Below, piece after piece: positions 16,513-27,984 of a stretch of DNA of 28,334 nt. Made by a program: the position numbers and the translations under genes. A model generated the notes under the pieces. The model was not told where the DNA came from. It worked only from the letters and a program-made list of their open reading frames with translations, and made no database searches. Within the stretch, counting starts at the first letter, position 1. Each line of letters opens with the position of its first letter. The stretch is from contig QZWS01000062.1 in NCBI GenBank assembly GCA_004114245.1, positions 3,310 through 31,643 on the forward strand, read 5' to 3'. This DNA comes from Zoopage sp. CT-All (Eukaryota > Zoopagomycota > Zoopagomycetes > Zoopagales > Zoopagaceae).

Positions 16513-19500
16513 CTACTTAGAAGACTCTAGCAACTGCCGCGCCTCTGCCATTGTCTTGTACAGGCGTGCAATCGAACTGCTACAGCGCATCATATGAATG
16601 TGCTTCAAGGAAGAAAGACAACCAACCTTGTCGCTGGTCCAATGGCTTGCTTCTTTACCGCTTGAGTAGCCATCCCGCCGCTTGCTCCAGCATCTTCCTC
16701 CATAGCAATAACGCGTCCATTCTCCTCCAACGGAATAGCCACCGGGCCGCTTTTCTGTGCAGCATACTCGGCATCAATCACCCGTTCGAAAATCTGCCGT
16801 TTGGCTGACGATATCATCATCGACGATGCAGCCGTGGCATAATGCGCGCCAGTGTCGCTGGTATCTTGCATTGCAAATGCCTTGCGAAGCGCTGGCTCGG
16901 CCAAACTCCAGTCTGCAGGTCTGCGCATGCACTGCATCAGAAAACTGGATAACCAGAGGAGCTTACAACGGAGGTGGTATGAAAGCGTCCACATGCTGTC
17001 CTTCGTCCACCACTGTGGCAGCAAAGACACGCTTTGAACACGAAAAAACCTCGTCCCAGGCTTGTTGGATCAGCTTTTGAAACGCTATATAACTTTAGAC
17101 CAAGATGGAGGGACATGACGACATACTTTCGTTAATTGCTATTGCAAAGAGCTCCAACAGTCGACGCACGAGTGCACTAAAAGCCTCAACCACAGGATCC
17201 ATCAAGCCTAAAGTATCATCAAATCGATCCCCAAGCAATCAAAGACGCACTCTTGAATCGTCGCAACGGGTACCTTCTTCCAGTGGCCATCAGCCATTTG
17301 AACTTGACATTCAAGTCCACAGCACTGCGCTCTACGTCGCGCTGTATTACGATCGTTGTCGCGTTCAACCTTGCCTCAATCTCTTCCTTGATCAAACTTA
17401 TAGAGCTAGCATCCTCGCTATCATTTTCAGTCGACCATAGCGCTACCAAAAGCGGCAGTTTGGGATACACTCGTCTGCGCGAAGTCAAGTCCGACGCTAT
17501 ATCATTGAGGTGTTTCCCGGCTAAAATGCCTGCTCGCATGGGCACCATCATCAATACGGCGCTAAGATCTTCCATCCCCTGTTATGAGCTCAGACTACGA
17601 TACGGCTTGGAAGGATAGCGATACCATAGATATAGTTGGCTCGTGGGATAGACTGCCGACCACAAAGGTTGCTGTAAATTCTGAGAGAGACGAAGCGCGC
17701 TGACTCAGCCCAAGCTTATGGAGTAGCCAGTACGCTATTGGAGATGACGGGTCGTTTGATACTATCAAAAGACGATATGCGGCAGGCTCGGATATAGGCA
17801 CGAGCTCTCGCAGGTCGATCGGAGCCCAAATATCGCTGTCGGCAGCATCGCCTGCCTCCTTTTCCGGCGTCGATGCCACCGTCAAGGAAACAGGCGGTGT
17901 GGGAAGCCGTGAATGAACTCTTACTTGCGTTCGTCCCACGGTATCCCCAAGCGACGCCGAAAATGCAGCAAATTCCATATCGCGTTTCTTCCGCAACCCC
18001 CTGCTTATCCAACGACTCTGACAGACCCGTTGAATGAATATCATCGTTGAGCGCTTTAGGAAGCGTTCGCGGAAAATTCGATCAACTTGAGCACTGGAAG
18101 CTTCATAAAATACTTCCGAGAGCAGCTGTCCGTATACAAGCTCGGCATGGGTAGCCCGCCGACGATCCAGCTGCGCCATCGCAGTGCGTATCTCTTCCGT
18201 GGCCACTGCACGTACGACACCCGAGACGAGCCAATTAAGCGAAATATCACTCGAGGACAGAATTAAATACTCTCTCCTTTGCTTGCTCAGTCGAGCCGAG
18301 CGAATGGATTCTTCTGCAACGGTATGGATGACGTCACCGACGATTTCGTAGCGAAGTTGAGCAGCTACTAACTGCGTGCGTCTCAAAAGATTCGTCCTCT
18401 TTGCCTCTATCGTCTTTCGCTGTTCTTCTACATGCGCACGCGCAGCGAGCGGCGATACTGACGCAATGTCGGCCAGTATCTCATTTTTGACAGCAGTTGC
18501 TAGCGAACCTATGGTCTGCGTATCCATTGCCGCATTTCGCTTCGGAGTCACTGAAGCAAGTGGGGCAGGTATTGACGCCGACTTTGCAAAAATACCAGTA
18601 GCGGAGGGTGCAGATGGAGGAAAGGCAGAAAACGACGGTGTTCGTTGTGGCGTATTTGTTGATGCCAGCGCTGGAGCATTGAACGATGACGTCGTGAATG
18701 AAAAACTATTGACTGCCCTTTGGGGCAACGGAGCCACCCGGGAATTCGCCATGTCCATCGGCCTTCGCACCGTCGTGGGTACAGGCTGCTGTTGGGGCCC
18801 GTGAATGAAGGAGGTAATAGCACCAGAGAACTTTGAGCCGACAAGCCGATGATTCCTTAACTGATAAAAGTACGTCGAGGTAACAGCTAAACAATGATGA
18901 AAATCGACGGATGATCCGAGTAATCGTACTTGGGGGAAGGCCAAGCGTGACCATAGCATTGTCTAACGTATCGGATAGGGAAAGCTCCAGCAGTTCGCAT
19001 GTTTTTGTAGCATCCACCAGGTCATTGAAGCCAAGGAGAGGGACCAGTTTGTCCATAGGATATGCCTGCGGTCGAGCCCGTCCACCAGCGACGTGCATGG
19101 CCTCGAAAGCATTCCTTCTGATCCAAGTGAAAAAAAATTCTAGGATGCAGGAGACAAGAGCGGGCGTCGAAGCATTGGCACAGAGGCGGAAGAAGCGGGC
19201 AGCGTTGAACGGCGCAGCCTCGTAGCCAGCATCGGCCAGGCGCTGAAAATTCAAAGCCAGCTGAACTTCTGGTGAATTGAAGATATGCTGTTTCAAGTTT
19301 TGCGACTTTCGCGAGGCGTCACGATCATGTAAGTGGGCCAGAAGATAGTAGGCACGGAATTCGGCCTCATTCGGATACTGGATCGTCGCGTCATCGTAGA
19401 ACTCGACCAAGCTCTGGAGCACTATTGCATGGTTATATGCATACCATTGGGACGCTTAAATTACCTTTTCGAAGCTGCTCAAGTTCTTGCTGAAGACTGA

Positions 19501-21833: not shown

Positions 21834-24800
21834 TTACTCTATCACAAGAAAGCGCTCCCCCGTTCTCCGGAGAAACTTGGATACAGCACCCCGTACATCC
21901 GCCCTATCCGATGCTATCATCTGCACCGCCAACTGATACAGGCCAGGGATGTGCCGGAGAAACTCGCTGATGTCGGCGTGCTTATCATCCGTCCCCGCCG
22001 CCTCCCAAGGCAGGTCTAATATACACTGCCAGACAACAATGACACATGGCGACCAATTGATGATTTCTCGTTGATTTTTCCCTGGCTCGGCAAGCAACTG
22101 CACGTACATTTCAAACAGCAGGCCAATCTCATCGATGAGCCGCTGCGCTAGCTTGACGTTGGCATCGCCGTAGAAGCCATAGAGGATGAAGGCAAAGCGC
22201 ATGTACGCGGTAAGTGCGACCATTTGCTGGCGAAAAAGATTAGGCAGTTGCTTGACGAAGCCAGCCTTCCATATATGCTGGCGTAAATCTTTATCTTCGT
22301 TAAATTTCTGCGCGAACCTAAAGGACTAGGCAAATTTAGATGCACAGCACAGGGTAAACTGCAAACCTCGTAAAGAGAGCGCATCCATCGCTTTCTAAGC
22401 ACCTCTGGAAGCGTTAGCACGAACTCGGGCTGCAGTCGCAGCTTTTCGTCGAGCTGCTGAACCATGAACAACTGGAGCGTGCACTTGGCGACGGCAGTTG
22501 GAAAATCGAGCGATGATGTGGCCTCTGAAGAAAAATGCCGCGCTGAATTGCCCGTCGCTTCGTCGACCACTTCGCGAGACGGGATATCTAATTCGGTTGG
22601 AGAGACGGCCGTAAAATACTGCTCTAGCTGGTCGGAAACGACCGTCCATCGCGTGTCGTCAAATACCTCGAGGTACCTGTCTATGATGCTCATGAATGCG
22701 ACTATGGCATGTTGGCAAACGGCCTCGTTCTGCCAGTAAAGCGCTCGGAGGATTTGATCAGTGACGATCGACAAGAGGAGGACGCCATCTTCCGAGCCTT
22801 GTATATCTACCGCGTACGCGTCCACCATGATGTCGAATACAGCCATCCACAATCTACTGGACGCGTTCAACGATGTCAGCGTCTCCGTCTCTATCTCTTG
22901 CAGCAGCGGTGCAAGTACAGACGAGTACAAGGAATGCCAGAATTTGGAATTAAACGACGAGCCGTGCTCCTTAATAATACCCGATAAACAATTCACAGTG
23001 GCGAACTGCAGATCCTCAGACTGGGAGTTGAGAATCGCTCGCGAGAGGCCAGAGAATATCGGGAACCTACATCGTGGTAAGTGATGCGCACACTACTACA
23101 ACACGGGCATACCAGTGATAAAACTTGTAATTTGCCGAAGCTTCACGGCCGGCATCGTAGAGCTCAGTCTCGTGTTCGCTGAGATACATAGCACATGTTT
23201 GCAGCAGGCCAATGGCTTGCTCGACCAGAGCAGGGTCGTGCATCATGAGAAACTCGAGCGTTGCCCGGATTGCCTCGGAGAAGACTATTCCTTCAAGAAG
23301 ATCGATGGAATTTGTGATCAAATCGCGCAAAAGCTCAAACGCAGCGACCATGATCTTGGGGTTCATTTTCGCGCTATGTCCGAGGGCAGCAAATACGACG
23401 AGCCAGCCGGACTTGAGATTTGCCGATCGCTTTGCTATGATCTGCCGAAGCGATTGCAGTACGGTCAAATGGACTGTAAGCAGTCGGCTGTTCTTCAGAA
23501 TGGAATCGAGCGGGAGAAGCAGTTCAAAATGATCGCGGTAGCGCGGCAATTCCTTGTGCTCGAGGTACATGTTCTGCAGCTGAAGCAGTGCGCTAACAGC
23601 AAACATGGCAATGTTGTCGTCGTCCTTGGAACCGACGGCCTCGAAGTATGGCTGAAGGGTCTGCCAGATTTGAGTCCATTCAAATGTCGTTCGTTGCAGA
23701 TTGTAATTCGTCGCCTCGACGATCTTCCCCAGGCAGAAGGAGACGCCTTCGGACGATTCGAATTCAGTAAGCGACACAGCCGCAAGTGATTGGAGGAACA
23801 CAATGACGCTGTCCCCGCTGAGGGAAGCCGACTTGAGCATAAGCCGGTCCAACGACTTGGTCATGGCGTCGGATGTCATTTCCGCTGAAATAAGCTTGAG
23901 CGACATAGCCACTTTGGACGAGCCGGAGGTGCCGGATACGATGCTGGCATCGACAAGCGAACCAATGAAATTAGAGCGTTGACTGACGACGGCATCCATG
24001 AGCTCGTTCGCATGCAGCACCGAGCTCGCGGACGACTTGCGTGCACCAGCACCGCCGCTGCCGTTCGGCACATGCAAGCTGGAGATCGAACCGTTGCGAG
24101 CCCGCCGTGTAGCAGCAGCGCGAAGGTCCATATGGCTCCCAGACGTCGCCAGTCGGTGAAATTGCGATAGTACGTCGATGACAGTGATCCACGAATCCGA
24201 AAGATACTCGCCAGCATCATCGGCAATCAGGAGCAAGCTGCGAATGGCCAGAATATTCTTTTGCTTAATCTCGCCTATATGGTTGATGCCCGTGAATTTC
24301 GCCATGGATGTGACAAATGCGGCGCGTTCCGTGACAAATTGGTAGCGACCTGCAAGCCAAATACTGTGCTGCATGGAAGAAAGGCAGAGCTGAATGAGCT
24401 CATTGGTGGTCAGGTCAGCGGTTTGGGCATCCTCATCTCCAGAAACCTCTTCAAAAGCGCGGCTAAAGGTGCCAAGAAAGGCGGTCCATGCGTCGACGAA
24501 CATGCTTCGGATGGACTCGTTCGGCTCTGGTTTGCCATTTACACCGATAACCGCCGAACGGACCAGTGCTTCGAGCAAGCCACCTGGCTGAGCGACGTCA
24601 TCGTACACCAATGCGAGATACTCATCCGACAGGTCGCTGCAGAAATTGATGGTGCGGCATTCTCGAGTAAAGGCGTCCTTGGAGACGGGTTCGTTGCGCT
24701 GCAGTCGAATGCAGAGTTTCATGACAAAAAATAGCAGATCGTAGACCGTGTCCGCAGATGCGAAATCATCCTCGTTGCAGTCACAATACCTAGGCTATCG

Positions 24801-26752
24801 TCAGAGCGATGGTGGCAATGTCCAACGCACCTTTCGGCAAACGCTTTGATGAAGCGGTCGAACTGTCCCAGATCAGCAGGCAGTGTTAGAGAGATGATCA
24901 GCTTGACACAGGCCTCGCTCAGTCGATCCCCAGACAATGCGAACGTTCGCATATAGGCCCGTAGCATGGTGTCCGGCTGGGCGGCAAGAAATTTGCCCAG
25001 CGAGGCCTTGTTGATCCCCTCTGCCTCCGCAAGCATGCTCGCAATCTGGAAGCAATCGTCCTCAACAACACCATGATCGATCCAATACCGGATCCCTTCG
25101 ATGGCATCGTCCAAGTCATTGAACATGCGGAGACCAATCTCGAGGTGATTCCGAAGATGGCGTTTATTATTGAGCTCGTCTTCAGTCGGGAGGATGACAT
25201 TGCTAAACTCCTTGACAACAATGGCAGCCGCAACAGGCGGGAAGGCAGCGGCCTCGCGGCGGGAAATATCTGCAAGGCCCTTGACGATAGCTCCGAGAGA
25301 TCGAAGGGCGCGGATGCGGATGCGAGCACTGTGAACGGCATCAAGGTCCGCGGCCGAGTCGAGCAGCAGACCCGCCGCGTGACTCCCAATGAGTCCGCCC
25401 ACGGTGGTGGAGGGCTTTTTGACCGAAGATCGCTGCTGAGCAATCCGAGATATGATGCTAACGATCTGGCCAAAGATCAGCGACGTGCCATAATCCTGAA
25501 ACACATCGTAGACGGTTATGAGCAGCTTTGTGTCGGAACAGAGCCGGTGGAGGCCATTGAGGAGAATCATCTTGCGCTTAGGGAGCAGCAACGGGTCTTC
25601 GAATGCATGAAAGAATGCCTCGTCAAATACAGTCTCCAGCTGTGTTCGCAACGGCCGTGTGAACTTTTCCAATATGGACATGAACAGCTGGACGGCAACC
25701 TCGAGGACCTGATCGGACGTGGAAAGACAGGACTTGAGCACGACGTTGCAGACCTCGTCGCGGAAAAACCGCACAATCACGGGGTCGGCTATGGCATGCT
25801 CACCGGCCTTGGCGAGCATCCCGAGTATGCAGTCGAGAGCGAGATAGACCCGCGTGATGAGTTTATCGGCATCGCGCTCATCATCATCGATGGTGGCGAA
25901 GCGCACAAATCGCTCGAGGATGAGCAGAGTGTCGCGCTGCAGCAGCTGATGGAGCGAATGAAGCTCAACCATGGGTCTGAGGAGATACGAATAGGTTGCA
26001 TCTGAGCCGTCATACAAGCCACCGGGCGATGGAGACGTGCGCAACGAGGCCTCCAGCTGCACCATGGCATAGTTCACAACCTGGCTCACGCTGGCCCGTG
26101 CTGTTGCCTGCGGCAGCGTCTTCGTCGAGCTGCCGCCATCGCTTGCGAGGGCAATCTCCATGCATAGATCAATGGCATCAACGAGACATTTCCCGTGGAC
26201 CTGGGCGTGCGGGGACGTGACCAGCGCGTGGAGCGCCTTAATGGCCTGCAGGTACAACTCGTCATTAACCTGGGTGGATATGGCGTCGCGGATGGACCGG
26301 ATGACATCAGCGGACGATTTCCGCACCCGCAAAACCACCGTGTCGGATGATGCCTCGGAGGAGGGATCGGTGGGAGGCAGTATAATGATGCCAGAGCCGT
26401 CGAACGCGGCCATCCCAGGGACGCCTTTGAGCACAACGTCCTCGCACACCAGCTCGCCATGCACGACCAGCTTTTGCACCGCGTCCAGGGCCAGCACTTT
26501 ATATCTCACACCAACGCTTCCGTGTAGACAGAGCTCAAATGGCAGCCAGAGGCTTGTATTTGCGGCGCGCTCCCAGGCGGAACGGGCTTCGGGATCGAAT
26601 GTTGCGAGAACATGCGCATGGGTGTCGCGGGCATCGCGCAGGGCGGCAATAGCGGCCGAGCATGCATCTCTGATATCCTTGGCACGCGCATGCGAGGTCG
26701 ACGCGGGCGGCGGCTCGGCGAGGAGACCCTCAAAGGCATGTTGGAGGCGCAT
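21834..26752 (-). CDS. large Sec7/BIG-type ARF-GEF-like protein with degenerate Sec7 domain
   Basis: Four exons (24831-26752, 23113-24789, 22367-23066, 21834-22307) give 1590 residues, normal for Sec7p/BIG. Architecture: N-terminal DCB, then HUS (KMILLNGLHRLCSDTKLLIT, about residues 415-435), Sec7 domain at about 545-715, then HDS repeats. The last of these include HWFPIFSGLSRAI and FNEDKDLRQHIWKAGFVKQL, typical of the BIG C-terminus. In ARF-GEFs, Sec7 exchanges GDP on ARF1 using a glutamic finger in GDYLGE or GEYLGE. Here the motif reads GKFLAA (24980-24997), with Ala591 in place of the Glu. LPGEAQKIDR reads LPADLGQFDR, and MLNTSLHNP reads LCIRLQRNE. The fold-supporting FAERYCDCN and FASADTVY remain, and the frame is intact. 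Intron 22308-22366 (59 nt) is the least certain, because a nearer TTTAG would break the frame. It is probably a catalytically dead paralogue or a repurposed scaffold. Confidence 0.87.
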
Positions 26753-26812: not shown

Positions 26813-27331
26813 CTATGCTTCTCCTCGGCTCCGTCTCCGGTCCCAGTACTCGCGCCGTACACCCGCGTAGCCTTCCTGCAGACGCCGCGGGATTCGCCGA
26901 TGGAACAGCAGCCGCCCGCCATCGCCTCTGGACTCGGTCATGCGCAGGTTGAAGCGGCCCAGCGCTCGATTGACCTGCGGGATGAAGCGACGCGCACGCG
27001 ATAGCGGTTCGGTGTAGGAAATCAGCACGACGGCGGTGGTGGTGAGAATAAGCGAGATCTTGATGAGCAGATGCATGGTGGGGTTCCGCGGCGGTGCGAG
27101 GAACACGAGGTATGCGAGGATGCAGATGGACACGATCAGAGCGCCTAGAATGGATTGGATGTAGACGAGGGTACGGTGGTGGTGTGCGGCGTTCTGGCGC
27201 AGGCGCTCCTCAAAGATGAGCAGATCGCGGAATCGCCGTTGGTTGGACGGGAGCTGCTCGGACGACGATGCACGCGCCAAGAACCCCGATGTATCTGTCG
27301 AATCCGAGCCGGAGATATTACCGGCGTGCAT
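26813..27331 (-). CDS. SPO7: Spo7-like regulatory subunit of Nem1-Spo7 phosphatase
   Basis: Partner of the ER/nuclear-envelope phosphatase Nem1, which dephosphorylates and activates the phosphatidate phosphatase Pah1. 172 residues, intronless. A polar Ser-rich N-terminus precedes the Spo7/CNEP1R1 signature FRDLLIFEERLRQNA (about 34-48). Two transmembrane helices follow, at about 56-78 and 87-106, then a basic Arg-rich cytosolic tail. The topology and the FRxLLIxEExLR pattern are diagnostic. It is shorter than the yeast protein and longer than animal CNEP1R1. Its stop is 60 bp from the start of the Sec7-like gene on the same strand. Its start is 95 bp from divergent RET3. Confidence 0.82.
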   Translation of the reverse strand: MHAGNISGSDSTDTSGFLARASSSEQLPSNQRRFRDLLIFEERLRQNAAHHHRTLVYIQSILGALIVSICILAYLVFLAPPRNPTMHLLIKISLILTTTAVVLISYTEPLSRARRFIPQVNRALGRFNLRMTESRGDGGRLLFHRRIPRRLQEGYAGVRREYWDRRRSRGEA

Positions 27332-27426
27332 CGCGGGCGGTGGGGACGGTGAGGACGGCGAGGGAGCTGGCAGCGAGGGCAGCGAGGGCGCGAAGGTCGT
27401 TGGGAAGATGCACCATCCATCCGCCC
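27332..27426. promoter_or_regulatory. 95-bp bidirectional promoter, SPO7 / RET3
   Basis: The region between the divergent starts is strand-asymmetric. The plus strand is a G/A-rich run with GGCGAGGG and GGCAGCGAGGG repeats at about 27336-27395, so the SPO7 leader would be a CT-rich tract. No TATA-like element is seen. Confidence 0.45.
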
Positions 27427-27984
27427 ATGAACCTGACGCTCGACACCATCAAGGCGGTGCTTGTCCTCGACTCGACCGACGCATCGACGCGGCTACTCGC
27501 CAAATACTACTCACCGTCGCTCGACAAGTACCGCGCGCACAAGGACCAGGTCGCGTTTGAGCGCGGCATCCTGGCCAAGACGAAGAAAGGCAGCAGCGTC
27601 TCTGCGCAGCCCGAGATCATGCTGTTCGACGGCCAACTCATCGCGTACCGCGCCATTGGCGACATTACCATTGCCGTGGTCGGCGTGCCTGATGAAAACG
27701 AGCTGATCATCGCCGCGGTGTTGACCGCGTACGTGGATGCGGTCTCCTCGCTGCTTCGCCATCAGCTGGAGAAGCATTCCTTTGTCGAGAACTTTGACCT
27801 CATGGCGCTTGCCCTCGACGAGTGCGTGGACGACGGCGTTGTGCTGGAGATTGATTCGGCGCAGATCGTGGCGCGGGTGTCCAAGCGCGGGTATGACTCG
27901 CAGGAGGTCGCGGTGGCCGAGCAGACGCTGATGCAGGCGTACCAGGTTGCCAAGGAGAGGCTGACCCAGTCGCTGCGCAGCTAG
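27427..27984 (+). CDS. RET3: coatomer subunit zeta (COPI)
   Basis: Small subunit of the COPI F-subcomplex (pairs with gamma-COP) in retrograde Golgi-to-ER transport. 185 residues, close to yeast Ret3. Longin-fold features are present: TIKAVLVLDSTDASTRLLAK, YYSPSLD, FERGILAKT, EIMLFDGQLIAYRAIGDITI and GVPDENELIIAAVLTAYVDA. The C-terminal part has FDLMALALDECVDDGVVLEI, typical of zeta-COP. The start at 27427 is used because the longer upstream frame is low-complexity Arg/Ala sequence read from the promoter. It is intronless. The next gene starts 87 bp downstream on the same strand. Confidence 0.94.
   Translation: MNLTLDTIKAVLVLDSTDASTRLLAKYYSPSLDKYRAHKDQVAFERGILAKTKKGSSVSAQPEIMLFDGQLIAYRAIGDITIAVVGVPDENELIIAAVLTAYVDAVSSLLRHQLEKHSFVENFDLMALALDECVDDGVVLEIDSAQIVARVSKRGYDSQEVAVAEQTLMQAYQVAKERLTQSLRS

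Follow-up and report, generated by a model that had tools for sequence, protein, structure and literature searches.

A degenerate Sec7 domain in an intact BIG-type gene of Zoopage sp. CT-All, a probable fungal variant of the animal BIG3 kind

We analyzed a 28,334-nucleotide (nt) stretch of contig QZWS01000062.1 of Zoopage sp. CT-All (hereafter, the window). A BIG-type gene with the domain order DCB-HUS-Sec7-HDS lies on its minus strand at 26752..21834 and has four exons that encode 1596 amino acids (aa) with no internal stop. An active guanine nucleotide exchange factor (GEF) for Arf has the catalytic Glu of FRLPGE and an intact motif 2, and both are missing from the sequence of this Sec7 domain. 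We favor, with a probability of about 0.6, the reading that the gene is intact and encodes an old, fast-evolving BIG/Sec7p paralogue that is GEF-dead or very weak and acts as a membrane scaffold or regulator in the manner of BIG3. The sequence, domains, intact frame, and changed residues of the gene, and the intact GEFs elsewhere in the genome, are established. A pseudo-GEF in a duplicate BIG had been proposed from the DNA letters (hereafter, the original prediction). With intact GEFs present this is still the best-supported reading; the glutamate named in the prediction is not the catalytic one, and the true glutamic finger shows a conservative Glu-to-Asp change.

Catalytic residues of the Sec7 domain

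Pfam recognized the Sec7 domain as two exon pieces (E 7.1e-17 and 3.4e-5). A 186-aa Sec7 piece matched 27 distinct PDB sequences at E<=0.001, including cytohesin, ARNO, and BIG chains, with cytohesin-1 as the best match (E 9.6e-21, over residues 11-185 of the piece). These matches, and the DCB, HUS, and HDS domains around them, agree with the original prediction of a Sec7 domain in a BIG-type protein. The span given there, 24780-25110, was too short: the domain runs from about 25165 to 24594, and the given span leaves out motif 2 (24719-24690) and the N-terminal end. The domain and its motifs are as follows.

24594..25165, minus strand: degenerate Sec7 domain, aa 530-706, split by the intron at 24830-24790
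24980..24997, minus strand: GKFLAA, which is GEYLGE in the relatives' consensus and is not the glutamic finger
24854..24889, minus strand: motif 1, LTLPADLGQFDR in the window versus FRLPGEAQKIDR in the relatives' consensus
24872..24874, minus strand: GAT codon of Asp627, at the glutamic-finger position (ARNO E156)
24690..24719, minus strand: motif 2, KLCIRLQRNE, where relatives mostly have MLNTDLHNPQ or LLNTD...

Motif counts were made on 134 database proteins plus the intact Sec7p of the same genome (contig C326, described below); the set is mostly fungal BIGs, part of it is the best 120 of 4017, and P0001, the window's own frame, was removed beforehand. The letters GKFLAA, LPADLGQFDR, and LCIRLQRNE had been read correctly, and the glutamic finger had been assigned to GDYLGE. 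That assignment is ruled out, and the finger is the last Glu of FRLPGE. This residue is Glu in all 135 comparison proteins, versus 123 of 135 for the GDYLGE Glu. In PDB alignments the chain of 1r8s has FRLPGK at the wild-type ARNO FRLPGE, and 1r8s is described as the E156K form of ARNO, in which the catalytic Glu is mutated. The BIG3 paper (PMC4096751) likewise names the final Glu of this motif. At this position the window gene encodes Asp627.

Further changes surround the finger. The equivalents of ARNO R118 and K159, which are reported to approach GDP in modelling, are Gln592 and Gln630 by our count. Motif 2 contains Lys665 and Arg672 at the expected Arf-binding groove, and one groove position has Lys where all but one of the 135 comparison proteins have Met or Leu. 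Because the Glu is Asp627, the two basic residues are Gln, and motif 2 is broken, the domain, judging from its residues, probably has little or no exchange activity. A conservation level of 90% or more across the 135 proteins is reached by 94 positions. Of these, 36 are retained in the window protein and 91 in C326, with 57-65 in the seven GBF-type proteins; P0009 and P0008, which score lowest among the comparison proteins, retain 49 and 53 and still have the Glu. Invariant positions number 13, and the window protein retains eight.

The proposal that loss is concentrated on the catalytic motifs is unsupported: 10 of 32 positions are kept within them, versus 26 of 62 elsewhere (Fisher p 0.37).

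Gene model and domain architecture

The remaining parts of the gene are as follows.

24831..26752, minus strand: exon 1, aa 1-640, with DCB, HUS, and the first two thirds of Sec7 (gene model, Pfam, AlphaFold model)
24790..24830, minus strand: intron inside Sec7, 41 nt (gene model)
23113..24789, minus strand: exon 2, with the remaining Sec7 including motif 2, and HDS region (gene model, Pfam)
22367..23066, minus strand: exon 3, HDS region (gene model)
21834..22325, minus strand: exon 4, with the C-terminal region containing SFRFAQKFNEDKDLR...KAGFVKQLPN and the stop codon (gene model)
26069..26698, minus strand: DCB domain (PF16213, E 3.1e-9), residues 37-246 of a frame starting 18 aa upstream
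25505..25939, minus strand: HUS domain (PF12783, E 4.8e-15)
23328..23567, minus strand: HDS domain (PF09324, E 7.8e-13)

DCB, HUS, Sec7, and HDS follow one another in this order in one gene, all above Pfam curated cut-offs, and the fold of the exon 1 part is predicted by the AlphaFold model. PF09324 has two matches in the genome, in C326 and the window gene, and none on contig C97, which carries the GBF1-type gene. By its domain order and HDS, the window gene is assigned to the BIG/Sec7p sequence family.

The scaffold had been described as open with a length of 1590 residues; the frame is indeed free of stops over 1596 codons, so that the length is corrected to 1596 aa. Given the base composition, 1595 codons would be stop-free by chance with a probability of ~10^-26, and the remaining five frames of the coding sequence have 20 to 93 stops each. 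The introns are 41, 46, and 41 nt long; splice sites in this gene and in C326 were our choice, made for the window gene on GT..AG and homology. The degenerate paralogue has three introns versus 16 in the modelled part of the intact Sec7p.

Other Arf-GEF-related genes

The genome assembly (8.62 Mb, 419 contigs) encodes an intact Sec7p on C326 with GEYLGEG, FRLPGEAQKIDR, and MLNTDLHNP. Its top three matches by E-value were two Piptocephalis proteins (50-51% identity, ~70% of the query) and one from Syncephalis plumigaleata (45%, 98%). A GBF1/Gea protein on C97 has intact FRLPGEAQQIER and MLNTDLHNP, and Mon2 is encoded on C281, the only place where a Mon2_C domain was found. With an intact Sec7p, an intact GBF1/Gea, and Mon2 in the genome, loss of exchange by the window protein would be affordable. 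The original prediction had suggested a search for a second Sec7/BIG with an intact motif, and had counted the lack of any other Sec7p/Gea-type GEF, together with exchange activity, against itself; the C326 and C97 genes supply such GEFs, and that refutation does not arise.

The degenerate paralogue retains KAGFVKQLPN and has a C-terminal end that looks more canonical than that of C326, whose model is unfinished there.

A fourth Sec7 gene lies on C292 (L010:2593-4590). Its Sec7 matches only positions 4-128 of 183, and its finger residue is Lys, the substitution engineered into ARNO E156K. The protein is degenerate, with an unrecognizable motif 2 and a PH-like stretch ahead of Sec7 that falls below the Pfam cut-off.

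Phylogeny and searches for orthologues

Tree 1 comprised the window protein, C326, and 20 of the 134 proteins, tree 2 was the same minus seven rows, and the model alignment (A1) likewise held 20 of the 134. In tree 1, the GBF rows separated at 100/100, and the 14 fungal BIG rows excluded the window protein (99/100), which lay with the GBF and other long rows. C326 Sec7p was sister to Piptocephalis (Zoopagales), at 100/99, a placement that, with its database matches, makes a zoopagalean fungus the most likely source of the genome. Tree 2 did not fix the position of the window protein, and the branch was very long. This branch measured 4.42 and 5.99 changes per column in the two trees, and its placement is thus unsure. 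An approximately unbiased (AU) topology test rejected the window protein and C326 as sisters (p 0.000175), and more weakly rejected the window protein in a clade with the Zoopagales rows (p 0.0224). A recent duplicate of the intact Sec7p is rejected by the former value, although the pull of the model on long branches calls for caution. The window protein was also not consistently nearer to C326 than to other fungi in segment identities. An old duplication is the likeliest origin of the gene.

No close orthologue at high identity was found among ~5.8 billion proteins searched with a word filter that could miss one near 30%. A query of aa 500-1260 gave 15 matches among 7996 scored candidates, the best at 26-27% identity and none named pseudo-BIG or BIG3. 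For aa 545-745, there were 850 candidates and none at E<=0.001. Shared words were counted with our own word sampling, which differs from that of the search tool. A C326 HDS stretch of similar size shared 32-56 words with the intact fungal relatives P0017, P0019, P0020, P0023, P0026, and P0130, 10 with P0002, and 21 with P0006; over DCB, C326 shared 9-16 with P0017, P0019, P0020, P0023, P0026, and P0130. The window protein shared 4-7 with P0002-P0010 (nine matches of the aa 500-1260 query). These counts suggest that an orthologue near 45-50% identity would probably have been seen and that one near 30% could be missed. A 335-aa query found no second copy of the window protein in the genome and matched only the other Sec7 genes.

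Divergence across the protein

The scaffold had been called conserved, and relaxed selection had been suggested for the Sec7 domain only. Over eight segments, the window protein is 12.5-33.6% identical to C326, Piptocephalis, Syncephalis, and Basidiobolus, and three compared pairs of intact relatives show 23.7-72.0% (DCB and HUS ranges were offset by 18 aa from the Pfam borders). Conservation of the scaffold was therefore too strong a claim: identity is low in all segments, indicating that the whole protein diverged, Sec7 along with the rest. Erosion limited to Sec7 within a conserved scaffold is unsupported. The gap between pairs with the window protein and intact pairs is large in HUS and Sec7, small before Sec7, and small at the C-terminus against Basidiobolus. 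Two segments are less informative: before Sec7 (aa 435-520) the intact relatives are only 23.7-25.6% alike, and at aa 1331-1596 Piptocephalis and Basidiobolus share 25.6% versus 24.9% for the window protein and Basidiobolus.

Among the 12 closest-contact residues of the DCB Arl1-binding interface (PMC4956616), 5 are identical by eye in the window, with the chain index taken as residue number, and the equivalents of Tyr109 and Leu156 are changed. The comparison carries no conclusion because yeast Sec7 itself keeps only 6 of the 20 residues on the interface list of the same paper.

Comparison with known proteins

Animal BIG3 (ARFGEF3) is the nearest precedent. Like the window protein, it is described as a BIG paralogue whose Sec7 domain is degenerate and lacks the FRLPGE Glu, beside intact BIGs (PMC4096751, PMC4956616), and it has a DCB region (PMC4956616). 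The window gene is likewise a BIG paralogue without the catalytic Glu, beside an intact BIG and GBF1 in the same genome. The likeness, drawn from published descriptions of BIG3, is supported as one of working, and we claim no orthology. The two also differ. BIG3 Sec7 is stated to have no significant BLAST similarity to BIG1/2 and BIG3 has a unique region between Sec7 and DUF1981 (PMC4096751), whereas the window Sec7 is readily matched by Pfam and by cytohesin. With Sec7p and BIG1-BIG2, the window protein shares its domain order and a C-terminal SFRFAQKFNEDKDLR stretch resembling the family consensus; unlike them, it has a changed Glu, basic residues, and motif 2, and it is highly divergent from the four fungal members compared above.

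Mon2, to which the original prediction had likened the protein, is not known to have a Sec7 domain. The window protein has one and is therefore not Mon2, and the genome has a separate Mon2; the comparison is poorer than that with BIG3, which had not been named. It stands in part, since Mon2/Ysl2 is likewise a DCB-HUS scaffold said to be without GEF activity (PMC4956616). The same source says that BIG3 too is without GEF activity and suggests that DCB aids membrane recruitment of both through small GTPases.

Another Sec7 family member that is not known to have exchange activity is FBXO8 (FBX8). Unlike the window protein, it is an F-box protein and is not known to carry DCB, HUS, or HDS. FBXO8 is listed as a Sec7 subfamily in the literature.

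In the open-access literature, with most subscription journals outside the search, no fungal pseudo-BIG was found. The degenerate BIG is probably a fungal variant of the known pseudo-BIG kind. If so, the origin of degenerate BIG proteins is not confined to animals, a sign that the BIG scaffold has a useful function without exchange, and the gene would give a fungal system in which the scaffold and catalytic functions of large Arf GEFs could be told apart. A Sec7 match in annotation alone does not mean an Arf GEF.

Proposed function and alternative explanations

The protein is probably under selection, with little or no exchange activity, and most likely acts at a membrane as a scaffold or regulator. 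The DCB-HUS-HDS helical solenoid would dock on Golgi or endosomal membranes, and may also dock on small GTPases or on itself, with the remnant Sec7 fold retained as a structural or binding module as in animal BIG3. By analogy with Mon2 and BIG3, we infer a role in membrane recruitment through a small-GTPase-binding DCB.

Some features weigh against this reading. The replacement at the true finger is conservative and retains an acidic residue; also preserved are the FAERY stretch and, where motif 1 ends, Asp632 and Arg633. They would fit a protein that is still an exchange factor, slow or retargeted, with Asp in place of Glu and an altered groove suited to a divergent Arf or Arl. Unusual substrates are possible, as searching the genome for the Arf family yielded 15 matches, 14 of them above cut-off, although these are exon pieces of fewer genes and the model also matches 10 of 14 prokaryote controls. 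We consider such a residual exchange factor unlikely, since changes affect the R118 and K159 equivalents, the groove Met/Leu, and, within motif 2, N, T, and D, and since E156D alone is reported to attenuate ARNO, which then does not trigger Arf1 recruitment in extract. The very long branch, the divergence throughout the protein, and the failure of the searches to find an orthologue could instead reflect a duplicate under relaxed constraint, without important function and heading for loss. This is improbable: despite so much change, the gene shows neither stop nor frameshift, it is rejected as a recent copy of C326, and most invariant positions persist.

An origin of the contig in another organism in the sample, or an assembly artefact, is very improbable. 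The assembly is in many contigs, and a ribosomal RNA pattern search of the genome had no match; against this, neighbors on the contig are ordinary eukaryotic genes, and introns of 41-46 nt compare with 40-46 nt in C326 (splice sites being author-chosen in both). Codon usage correlated with a pooled reference at r 0.848, and because three of the four reference genes came from the same window, the comparison was redone against genes of other contigs; a zeta-COP row in the first comparison was out of frame, with 6 stops, and was disregarded. The window gene gave r 0.77 with C326 (0.17 when shifted by one base; 0.60 antisense, so that this contrast is modest) and 0.63 with the C281 Mon2 frame (0.28 and 0.29, respectively).

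As a speculative and rather doubtful extension of the favored pseudo-GEF reading, the lineage's BIG-type (Asp) and cytohesin-like (Lys) Sec7 proteins might be non-exchanging holders or sorters of Arf-GDP, with all exchange left to one BIG and one GBF1.

Neighboring genes

Two open frames of 454 aa each (17595-18959 and 443-1807, both minus strand) had no Pfam match at E 0.1. A Spo7-like protein (PF03907, E 1.3e-11) is encoded at 26813-27331 on the minus strand. Near the Arf-GEF-like gene, 27268-27984 on the plus strand encodes a small adaptin-type chain (PF01217, E 2.1e-15) that by eye resembles zeta-COP of COPI.
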